Virus record (IMG/VR): IMGVR_UViG_3300021468_000008
Coordinates: 1-20,674 of that record
DNA: 20,674 bases
Strand: one strand, 5' to 3'
DNA from: a virus
Notes under the pieces: model-generated
Told to the model about the DNA's origin: nothing
The model's database searches: none
Seen by the model: only the letters and a program-made list of their open reading frames with translations
Shown: positions 3,830 to 10,862 of the stretch, in pieces
How positions within the stretch are numbered: the stretch's first letter is position 1
How the letters are laid out: every line of letters starts with the position of its first letter
Made by a program: the position numbers and the translations under genes

Positions 3830-4409
3830 GACCTTTTTCATCTTCTTAGACCTGCATGATGTTATAGCAGGATATGTTCTAGAGTTAATTTCACGCCACG
3901 GATGGCCTGAGAATCCAGAGGCGTGGACGTTGTATCGAATGTTCCCTAATGTTGATTGGGTTGCCCATTTCGATGAGCCACATCACGCCGAATTCTTACG
4001 GAACCTATCTCCGCTTGATGGGGCGGTTGATGGTGTTCAAAGATTGATGGACCGGGGAATCGTAAGAATACTTACGGCCACTAAGCCCGGCGGCGAGAGT
4101 GAGAGGGCCGTTCGGGAATGGGTTCATTGGTATCTTGGGGCCGACATTCCTGTGATTTGTACAGGAAGTGCGCTGGAAAAGGTTGCGTGGATCAATAGAA
4201 ATGTGGTAAAATACAGTATCGACGCTTACATTGTTGACGACCATCCGGCTGTTCTGTCTCAGCTTACGCTAAAGGAGAATGGGCTGAGAGTGGTCAGGTT
4301 CAAGGCTCCGTGGAATGATCACCCGGAACTTGATCATCTTGTGACGGTCAAGAACTGGGATGAATTAGAGACGCTGATTTGTAGCAATACAGGAGGTTAC
4401 TATGAATGA
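3822..4409 (+). CDS. HAD-superfamily 5'-nucleotidase-like protein
   Basis: 195 aa. The layout is that of the 5'(3')-deoxyribonucleotidase branch of HAD phosphatases: a motif I strand IFLDLHDV (residues 7-14, nucleophile D10), a long cap helix, motif II ILTAT (83-87), a candidate motif III Lys at 120, and motif IV YIVDDHP (136-142, D139/D140). Such enzymes remove phosphate from (deoxy)nucleoside monophosphates. The residue two after the nucleophile, normally Asp as general acid, is His12, which may alter or abolish activity. In phages this family can tune nucleotide pools. ATG 3822 lies inside the previous gene. Confidence 0.75.
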   Translation: MSETFFIFLDLHDVIAGYVLELISRHGWPENPEAWTLYRMFPNVDWVAHFDEPHHAEFLRNLSPLDGAVDGVQRLMDRGIVRILTATKPGGESERAVREWVHWYLGADIPVICTGSALEKVAWINRNVVKYSIDAYIVDDHPAVLSQLTLKENGLRVVRFKAPWNDHPELDHLVTVKNWDELETLICSNTGGYYE

Positions 4410-4812
4410 GGTGATTAGGTTTTTGGACACCCTGCCGGGACTGCTGCCGTGGTCTATCCGAGCCATTATGGGCTTAGTCACGGTAGATGTCTTGTTAGGC
4501 ATCGCCCGCGCTATTCGTTTGAAGGAGTTCAAATGGCAGCGGATGGCCGCATTCTATCGAACGATGGTGGTCCCATACATCATCGGCTACGTGGCTGTTA
4601 TTGCCGCGGCTAAGTTCATCGGTGAGGCAACGCTGCCGGAGCCTTACGGCTTTATCGTCAGTGCGTCTATGATCGGCTTGGCATGGGTGTCGCTCGTTGG
4701 GACGTTGGCTAGGTCTTGCTGGACAAACGCTCGTGAGCTTTGGAGCGGTATCCCTGAGTGGCAACGCTACTTCGATGAGATAGACGGGGACGAGCACTTT
4801 ACCGAAAAGTAA
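4402..4812 (+). CDS. Holin-like three-span membrane protein
   Basis: 136 aa with hydrophobic segments at about 17-38, 54-73 and 83-104 and a charged, acidic C-terminal tail. The arrangement DVLLGIARAI followed by a basic turn (KEFKWQR) and a second hydrophobic segment resembles phage holins of the holin_4 (TcdE/UtxA-like) type. These form inner-membrane pores that release endolysin. ATG 4402 has AGGAGG with a 5-nt spacer and overlaps the stop of the HAD gene. No endolysin is recognisable next to it. An unrelated membrane protein is possible. Confidence 0.62.
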   Translation: MNEVIRFLDTLPGLLPWSIRAIMGLVTVDVLLGIARAIRLKEFKWQRMAAFYRTMVVPYIIGYVAVIAAAKFIGEATLPEPYGFIVSASMIGLAWVSLVGTLARSCWTNARELWSGIPEWQRYFDEIDGDEHFTEK

Positions 4813-4820
4813 GTCTTACT
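4808..4820. repeat. Perfect 6-bp palindrome at the end of the holin-like gene
   Basis: AGTAAG-T-CTTACT spans the TAA stop of the holin-like gene. There is only one central base and no T-tract, so it is not a rho-independent terminator. It could be a protein-binding site. Confidence 0.4.
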
Positions 4821-4914
4821 GGGCGCGAAAAGGTGAGCCTGCGGCTGATATTACGGGCGGCCAAGTTTCCGCCTGAGGGCCGCAGGGACGCGGGTTCGAT
4901 TCCCGCCGCGTCCA
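4821..4914 (+). ncRNA. tRNA/tmRNA-like structured element
   Basis: A canonical T arm is visible: GCGGG (4890-4894), loop TTCGATT, CCCGC (4902-4906), followed by CGCGTCC (4907-4913) and A. GGGCGCG at 4821-4827 pairs with CGCGTCC (one G-U), giving an acceptor-like stem. Between them CTGCGGC (4839-4845) pairs perfectly with GCCGCAG (4879-4885), enclosing a hairpin of GGGCGG (4855-4860) with CCGCCT (4869-4874). GGAC directly before the T stem matches the conserved 3' end of tmRNA. There is no usable anticodon loop with T33, no normal D arm and no 3' CCA. It may be a degenerate tRNA, a tmRNA-like small RNA, or a phage copy of a host tmRNA 3' end serving as an integration core. Confidence 0.5.
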
Positions 4915-4916
4915 CT

Positions 4917-4942
4917 CCGCCTTGGCGGTACCACCTTGGCGG
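4917..4942. repeat. 14-nt imperfect tandem repeat with GGCGG hairpin
   Basis: CCTTGGCGG occurs at 4920-4928 and 4934-4942 with a 14-nt period. The first copy also forms the palindrome CCGCC-TT-GGCGG (4917-4928). Short repeats continue downstream: ATGTAGT twice in tandem (4954-4967) and AAGTC twice (4973-4982). They lie just 3' of the tRNA-like element. Arm-type recombinase sites would look like this, but no protein is known to bind. Confidence 0.45.
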
Positions 4943-4996
4943 ATCGGGGTGAGATGTAGTATGTAGTAGGACAAGTCAAGTCACCGCGCCACATCC

Positions 4997-5032
4997 GAGG
5001 GCCGATTGGCTGGCGGTGCGCCATAGGCCCTC
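4997..5032. promoter_or_regulatory. Nested RNA hairpin upstream of the 58-aa gene
   Basis: GAGGGCC (4997-5003) pairs perfectly with GGCCCTC (5026-5032). Inside, TGGCG (5011-5015) pairs with CGCCA (5019-5023) around a GTG loop. No T-tract follows, so it is unlikely to be an intrinsic terminator. It ends 22 bases before ATG 5055 and could be a 5' leader structure or a processing site. Confidence 0.5.
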
Positions 5033-5054
5033 CCCCGAATAATGAGGAGGAACA

Positions 5055-5231
5055 ATGGAGGTCAAGATAAGCTGGTTCTCGAAGGCTAGAAATTCTGTAG
5101 ATACTAAAGCTCTGGTAGATTTGATAATGGATGCGGTGCGAATGCATGCCCAAGCTGTAACACTAATGCCCTATCTCAACGGACGATCAAGCCCATGGCG
5201 TGAATATTGGATGAGGGAGGAGGATGAGTGA
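5055..5231 (+). CDS. Small hypothetical protein
   Basis: 58 aa, not recognised. ATG 5055 lies behind ATGAGGAGGAACA, a strong ribosome site, and the frame is open to a TGA that overlaps the next ATG (5231). The protein is amphipathic and mostly helical (residues about 15-38, VDTKALVDLIMDAVRMHAQ), with an acidic end (REEDE). It is the first gene after the non-coding island. Confidence 0.65.
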   Translation: MEVKISWFSKARNSVDTKALVDLIMDAVRMHAQAVTLMPYLNGRSSPWREYWMREEDE

Positions 5232-8523: not shown

Positions 8524-9324
8524 ATGCCTGACCCTATCATCAATTATTTGCCTCCATGGTTTGTCAATTCGCTTAGTGAAGAGGCTCGACAGAGGCTTCA
8601 AGAGGTTCCGGCATATGTGGGTGACGTGCCGTGGTATCTCGCTCCTATACATTGGCCAGCAAGCAGAGAACCGCCCGCTGGATATTATTATCACGGAGTG
8701 CCGCTGAGATACATTTGGCTTGATCCCAGACATCAGGCCGGAACTACACCCATGCACGAATCCATTCATGCCATAGATCCGTCCTTAAATCTATTTTCGA
8801 TGATTACGGGACGGATGCCAGAATGGAGAGCTAGGCTTCTTCAATCACCGCGAGTAGATATAGCACGGGATGTCTATACTGCTGGAGGTAAATATGGATG
8901 GAGGGAAAGCGAATTTTTGCCGATGTCTCTCCAGCTAAATCGCTTCGCTCTTAGTGAGTTACCACCCAATGAGCGCGCTGCGTGGCTACAATCAGGTTTA
9001 TTTAGGCCAATTGCCGCAGTACCAGAGGAATTGGTTAGGGCTGGTAGGCGATCTTGGCAACACGAGGGGCGAAAATTAGGTTTGGCTAGTCCGGCCCCGG
9101 AGCTTACTGGCGCTTTACCGACGGAGCCGTTTCCTGATATATATCCACCTCCGGCATCACCTCCACCGTTCATAAAGCCGCTTAAGCTCAGTAATTTGAT
9201 TGCGGAGCAATTAATGGGAAGAAGGTCATATAGGCGACACAAATCGACTATTGCTAAGCGAGGGCGCGGGCCGGCGCGCCGGAAGCGATATCGGCCATTT
9301 CCTATTGGAAGAGAACACTACTAA
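8524..9324 (+). CDS. HExxH metallopeptidase-like protein upstream of terminase
   Basis: 266 aa. HESIH at residues 78-82, within TPMHESIHAID, is a zinc-peptidase motif; a downstream Glu (WRESEF) could be the third ligand as in gluzincin-type peptidases. The second half is Pro-rich (YPPPASPPPF) and ends in a very basic tail (RRHKSTIAKRGRGPARRKR), which may bind DNA. A start at 8476 would be upstream of the mRNA start, so ATG 8524 with GGAGGG about 10 nt before it is chosen. It occupies the place where small terminase is usual but shows no such fold. Roles such as prohead protease or host-directed peptidase are inference. Confidence 0.7.
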   Translation: MPDPIINYLPPWFVNSLSEEARQRLQEVPAYVGDVPWYLAPIHWPASREPPAGYYYHGVPLRYIWLDPRHQAGTTPMHESIHAIDPSLNLFSMITGRMPEWRARLLQSPRVDIARDVYTAGGKYGWRESEFLPMSLQLNRFALSELPPNERAAWLQSGLFRPIAAVPEELVRAGRRSWQHEGRKLGLASPAPELTGALPTEPFPDIYPPPASPPPFIKPLKLSNLIAEQLMGRRSYRRHKSTIAKRGRGPARRKRYRPFPIGREHY

Positions 9325-10862
9325 TGAAGCCGCTAGTTGAATGGGTTAAAGACCCCGGATTTTGGGTGAAACAGAACTGGGACTGGGAACGTGGCCGGTG
9401 GACCGAGCCTGGGTTTATTCGGCTTGCAGAGCACGAGGCAAGGATTCTGGCCCATTGCTTTACACTAGATCCGGTTGAGGAAAGATTCCCTTACACAACC
9501 GTCGTCTTGAGCGCTCCAAAAAAGTCCGGGAAGACTACGTGGGCCGCTATGATTGGATCCTGGTATGCGGACCAAGTAGTAGCGACGGAAGTCTACTGTT
9601 TGGCAAACGATGAGGAACAGGCTCGTTCCCGCGTTTTTGAGGACATTACTTATGACCTACTTCAGAAAGGTATTAAGAGCCGAAAGAGCGAAGTAACGCT
9701 TCCGAATGGCACACTTATTAAGGCATTAGCAGGAGATTATCGTGGCGTCGCTGGTTCTCGTCACGGCCTTACATTATGGGATGAGTTGTGGGGCTATACC
9801 TCCGACCGGAGCCGACGCCTATGGGCCGAGATGCTTCCTATCCCAACCGTCCCATATCCGTTACGGGTGGTTGTAACCTATGCTGGATTCGAGGGTGAGT
9901 CCGAGCTACTCTGGAACCTCTATGAGGAAGCCTACTTGAAAGGGACACCGGTGCCGGAGCTTGAAGATATCGTGAACGAGGATGGCGAGCCGGTATGCCG
10001 GACCGATGGAAAAGGTACGTTCGTCTATTGGGATACGGTTCCGCGCAAGCCGTGGCAGACGCAGGAGTACTACGAGCAGCAGCTTGCCGACCCGTCCCTG
10101 CGTCCGATGGACTTCCTGCGCTTACACCGCAATCAGTGGGTGACGAGCGAGGAGGAGTTTATCGCCATTCAATACTGGGACAAGGCGGCGGTTTTGAATG
10201 GGCCGGTTATCTACGACACCTCAGATGATCGCCGGAACTTGCCCGTCTCGGTAGGCGTGGACGCCAGCACGAAACATGATACGACGGCGGTGGTTGGGTG
10301 CTATTACGACGCCAGTCGCAAGAAAGTGGGTATCGCCTTCCATCGGATTTGGAAGCCCGCTGGAGGGATTGTGGATTTATCTGAAGTGGAAGATTATATT
10401 CTGACTATTGCCAAGGTATGTCATATCAACACCTTGGTTTATGACCCGACACAACTTCATCAGATGATGACGAATATGGCTAAGCGCGGCTTCAAGACGG
10501 TCGAGTTTAGCCAGAACTCGAAACAGATGAGCGCCGCCACTCAGCACTTGTATGAGCTTTTTGTTGGCGGAAATATCGAAGTCTATCCGAACGACGAGCT
10601 TCGCAACCATATCAAGTTCGCTAAGGTGGAGATTAAGGGCGGCGTACCGAGACTAACGAAATCGAGTAAGCGCAGCAAGAATAAGATTGATGCGGCGGTG
10701 GCCCTAGCTATGGCGGCCTATGATGCTGTCCAGCGGGGCGGGGTGGATACGACGAAGCCTATTATCATCGCATCGCCATTCTCTGATGCTACGGCCTTTA
10801 CCCACAAGACGCCGCAACAGATACTCGAAGAAAAATATTTGCCGGAGGCATTAAGGAGCTAA
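9324..10862 (+). CDS. terL: Terminase large subunit
   Basis: 512 aa, the DNA-packaging motor ATPase and nuclease. Walker A APKKSGKT (residues 64-71) and Walker B LTLWDE (149-154) mark the ATPase. The RNase H-like nuclease follows with VGVDAST (D313), VYDPTQ (D374) and a late Asp (KIDAA, D456). It cuts concatemers and pumps DNA through the portal. Length is normal. It starts at TAATG overlap with the metallopeptidase-like gene and ends 1 base before the portal gene. All key residues are present, so it should be active. Confidence 0.95.
   Translation: MKPLVEWVKDPGFWVKQNWDWERGRWTEPGFIRLAEHEARILAHCFTLDPVEERFPYTTVVLSAPKKSGKTTWAAMIGSWYADQVVATEVYCLANDEEQARSRVFEDITYDLLQKGIKSRKSEVTLPNGTLIKALAGDYRGVAGSRHGLTLWDELWGYTSDRSRRLWAEMLPIPTVPYPLRVVVTYAGFEGESELLWNLYEEAYLKGTPVPELEDIVNEDGEPVCRTDGKGTFVYWDTVPRKPWQTQEYYEQQLADPSLRPMDFLRLHRNQWVTSEEEFIAIQYWDKAAVLNGPVIYDTSDDRRNLPVSVGVDASTKHDTTAVVGCYYDASRKKVGIAFHRIWKPAGGIVDLSEVEDYILTIAKVCHINTLVYDPTQLHQMMTNMAKRGFKTVEFSQNSKQMSAATQHLYELFVGGNIEVYPNDELRNHIKFAKVEIKGGVPRLTKSSKRSKNKIDAAVALAMAAYDAVQRGGVDTTKPIIIASPFSDATAFTHKTPQQILEEKYLPEALRS

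Follow-up and report, generated by a model that had tools for sequence, protein, structure and literature searches.

Why would a phage encode 94 bases that begin and end like tmRNA, the bacterial RNA that rescues stuck ribosomes, but have no room for its coding part? The element lies at positions 4821-4914 (+) of the window, by which we mean the whole 20,674-nucleotide stretch of viral DNA analysed here. This stretch is a virus fragment with a terminase gene (9324-10862), a weak portal match and DNA methyltransferases. The element lies in the largest intergenic gap of the gene-dense part of the record (4813-5054, 242 nt), 8 nt after the stop codon of a small ORF (4402-4812). An earlier note had proposed a compact tRNA-like RNA made by the phage, for example a tmRNA decoy or a regulator that binds EF-Tu or SmpB, or else a remnant. 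Our analysis confirms the fold and supports the tmRNA-like, not tRNA, reading well, while the decoy role remains inferred and a remnant cannot be excluded for this one copy.

Predicted fold and relation to tmRNA

The element is predicted to fold into four helices, with all pairs at a probability of 0.94 or higher, and comprises the following parts:

4821-4827 (+), acceptor stem, 5' strand GGGCGCG, pairing with 4907-4913 (7 of 7 pairs, G3·U70 retained; pair probabilities 0.98-1.0)
4828-4837 (+), D-loop-like linker AAAAGGUGAG, with GG kept and the canonical UUCGAC signature altered
4838-4846 (+), P2 helix, 5' strand CCUGCGGCU (9 bp; pair probabilities 0.97-1.0)
4854-4860/4869-4875 (+), 7-bp hairpin including one G·U, capping P2
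4878-4886 (+), P2 helix, 3' strand GGCCGCAGG
4886-4889 (+), GGAC junction typical of tmRNA 3' ends, its first G closing P2
4890-4906 (+), T arm GCGGG-TTCGATT-CCCGC (stem 4890-4894/4902-4906)
4907-4913 (+), acceptor stem, 3' strand CGCGUCC
4914 (+), discriminator A; the 3' end is ACTC, so CCA is not encoded (genomic CTCC follows)

The inner stem, P2, is thus 9 bp rather than the 7 bp given in the earlier note. The minimum free energy is -50.8 kcal/mol (z -3.35), with 1 of 200 shuffles as stable. Although the 3' 30 bases are plainly tmRNA-like, the remainder could in principle have arisen by chance. With the 3' part held fixed and 300 nt upstream shuffled with dinucleotides preserved, a 7-bp acceptor partner 40-120 nt upstream occurred in 12% of trials, whereas the acceptor plus a 9-bp P2 at a tmRNA-like spacing occurred in only 40 of 100,000. 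Downstream, a possible H-type pseudoknot at 4982-5032 (CACCGC 4982, GAGGGCC 4997, GCGGTG 5013, GGCCCTC 5026) precedes the ribosome-binding site of the ORF at 5055; 14 of 2000 shuffles gave as much, and it had no Rfam match.

ARAGORN called nothing in the element and Rfam gave nothing at gathering score, including for tRNA (RF00005), and the fold has neither the D arm nor the anticodon arm of a tRNA. At relaxed threshold, however, Rfam tmRNA (RF00023) aligned end to end with 302 of 374 model positions deleted (32.7 bits against a gathering score of 47, E 1.1e-11 for 361 nt). The acceptor, D-loop region, P2 and T arm of tmRNA are therefore present, while the tag reading frame and pseudoknots are not: this is a tmRNA tRNA-like domain (TLD) alone, 94 nt rather than about 360. 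A full tmRNA with a hidden middle can be rejected since only 58 nt lie between the 5' acceptor strand and GGAC. Permuted two-piece tmRNAs (RF04321, RF01849-RF01851) also have a separate TLD-like piece, but there the 3' piece precedes the 5' piece in the gene, whereas here the 5' acceptor strand comes first in one short RNA.

A class of TLD-only RNAs in phages

Pattern scans of IMG/VR found about 130 viral contigs with TLD-only tmRNAs, mostly of 70-98 nt and most of them 78-83 nt long. Of 102 distinct matches, 95 have a perfect 7-bp acceptor, which the pattern did not request, and 94 of these have G3·U70; the one exception is a chance match. A stricter pattern gave 30 viral contigs and none in 84,980 prokaryote genomes, in which the form is nearly absent overall. 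One phage contig (L187) contains two mini-tmRNA-like elements about 1.3 kb apart (5-84 and 1317-1395), and another (L131, 870-998 counted on the reverse complement) contains a 129-nt form with a perfect acceptor and encoded CCA, intermediate in length between mini and full tmRNA.

Conservation in this class is not limited to the 3' 30 bases: the acceptor and P2 covary strongly in dozens of phages. P2 pairs at 7.2 of 8 positions against 4.0 after shuffling partners, never above 4.4 in 2000 shuffles. On 37 aligned sequences 95.6% of cells pair, and 199 cells are changed on both sides against 57 in shuffles, with none of 500 shuffles reaching that number; sliding the partner destroys this signal. 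ARAGORN misses the elements tested, while all 26 in long contigs exceed the Rfam tmRNA threshold, so they are either unannotated or would be labelled simply "tmRNA".

The window copy belongs to this class, though at its divergent edge. A covariance model built from the 37 other phage elements, without the window, found the element as its only match in the window (45.9 bits, E 2.7e-10 in 20.7 kb). Class members score 49-95 bits, while full tmRNA ends, permuted tmRNAs and tRNAs score at most about 40. The cap hairpin is longer than in most relatives, and in alignments to the model and to full phage tmRNA GGGCGCGAAAAGGTATCGAC the linker reads AAAAGGUGAG instead of ending GGUUUCGA. Within the D-loop signature GGNUUCGAC, G19 packs on SmpB and G19C abolishes binding (PMC8363625). 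In mini-tmRNAs from the scan that did not impose UUCGAC, the GA of that motif is always kept; the window also has a GA (GGUGAG), but it is shifted and its alignment is uncertain. Binding of SmpB by the window copy is therefore uncertain.

These features could alternatively reflect a functionless remnant of a full phage tmRNA left by internal deletion. An exact search for the 29-base 3' end gave three IMG/VR contigs, all with full-length tmRNAs, two of which (L002/L004) share GGGCGCGAAAAGGT with the window copy at the 5' end, that is, the acceptor GGGCGCG and AAAAGGT. Furthermore, no close relative of this copy was found in IMG/VR: searches for exact-acceptor and AAGGTGAG variants gave none that were true. 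The neighbouring 4402-4809 protein led to no relatives, and 14 loci related through the terminase lack the element, and the neighbouring genes were not found in them either, though several are fragments. However, a random deletion would rarely leave a perfect 9-bp P2 (4 in 10,000 for acceptor plus P2) together with a perfect capping hairpin, the acceptor is perfect with G3·U70, the P2 sequence does not resemble that of L004, and the class as a whole is under clear structural selection. We consider degeneration of this copy unlikely, but possible.

Genomic context and cultured examples

In 30 of the mini-tmRNA loci (112 of 136 have at least 1.3 kb downstream), the RNA is 30-300 nt upstream of a major capsid gene, most after the head protease gene; 26 loci have a head maturation protease gene nearby. 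Within this syntenic set (12 distinct RNAs), P2 is rewritten several times while staying paired (7.45 of 8; at most 6.45 in 5000 shuffles). Others lie in tRNA arrays, or beside DnaB helicase, exonuclease, endolysin or head-tail adaptor genes. Cultured examples are Streptomyces phages LuckySocke, GiJojo, pSt2308, BRock and Alone3, Pontimonas phage phiPsal1 (again just before the capsid gene) and Stenotrophomonas virus Jojan60, none annotated as tmRNA. Microbacterium phage Quenya carries a divergent 92-nt element (L283, 639-730) with a perfect acceptor and several hairpins, directly upstream of tRNA-Gln, which may be another unusual TLD-type RNA.

The position before the capsid gene could suggest a tRNA-like processing signal that lets RNase P and tRNA 3' nucleases cut a phage polycistronic message, for example to set the 5' end of the capsid mRNA. 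This seems improbable: such a signal would not need G3·U70, GGAC or P2, which are conserved, many copies lie in tRNA arrays or beside replication genes, and the window copy is not upstream of a recognised capsid gene. Even less likely is an attachment site copied from the 3' end of a host tmRNA gene. Copies of this type exist beside integrases, as in Mycobacterium phage Kimona, where a tRNA/tmRNA-like 3'-end copy between integrase and excisionase genes (L269, 701-735) is a likely attP. However, no tyrosine integrase was found in the window, itself a fragment, or in its 55-kb relative, only 4 of 26 long contigs with mini-tmRNAs have one (none adjacent, the nearest about 3.3 kb away), and attP does not need the paired 5' acceptor and P2.

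Inferred role in host ribosome rescue

The most likely function, which we favor with moderate confidence, is a decoy that titrates SmpB and blocks host trans-translation. The third acceptor pair is G·U, which is required for alanylation (PMC2584231), and the discriminator A is probably also an alanine identity element. After trimming and CCA addition by host enzymes, the RNA may be alanylated by AlaRS, bind EF-Tu and host SmpB, and compete with host tmRNA for SmpB or for stalled ribosomes; having no resume codon, it could not complete tagging. None of the 26 long contigs has SmpB or a second, full tmRNA, as expected if the RNA works on host factors. Transcription, inhibition and benefit to the phage are nevertheless inferred, there are no transcript data, and no promoter or terminator was recognised near the window copy.

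One phage precedent is published. The tmRNA of Mycobacterium phage DS6A is reported as TLD only, with no tag frame, and a similar RNA inhibits E. coli tmRNA (PMC4131195, PMC11915505, citing Mao et al. 2009); PMC4131195 adds that inhibition is strong whether or not the molecule is chargeable, perhaps by titrating SmpB. Tag-less tmRNAs are also known from mitochondria (jakobids and others) and Mallomonadaceae plastids (PMC11915505), although these are organellar, usually permuted in mitochondria, and attributed to reductive evolution rather than phage carriage. Since CDS-less mitochondrial tmRNAs are retained together with SmpB (PMC11915505), and many phage copies lie next to the capsid gene, which is presumably highly expressed, the phage TLD with SmpB could instead act as a tag-less rescue device or a phage-serving ribosome recycler. 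We regard this as doubtful given the inhibition reported in E. coli and the lack of any known stop codon or release step for a TLD alone. More speculatively, phages of many lineages may carry an anti-ribosome-rescue RNA, often placed directly before the capsid gene so that it accumulates late in infection, with the window copy a derived form that works without the standard D-loop signature.

The tmRNA database lists 9 standard-form CDS-less tmRNAs among 97,179, with DS6A as the phage case (PMC11915505). As far as the literature searched shows, the wide distribution in phages (94 distinct sequences), the covariation evidence, the capsid-gene niche and the cultured examples are new. Our scans show that the form is common in phages, under strong structural selection, and almost absent from bacterial genomes. 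If these RNAs inhibit trans-translation, phages have widely adopted an RNA counter to ribosome rescue.
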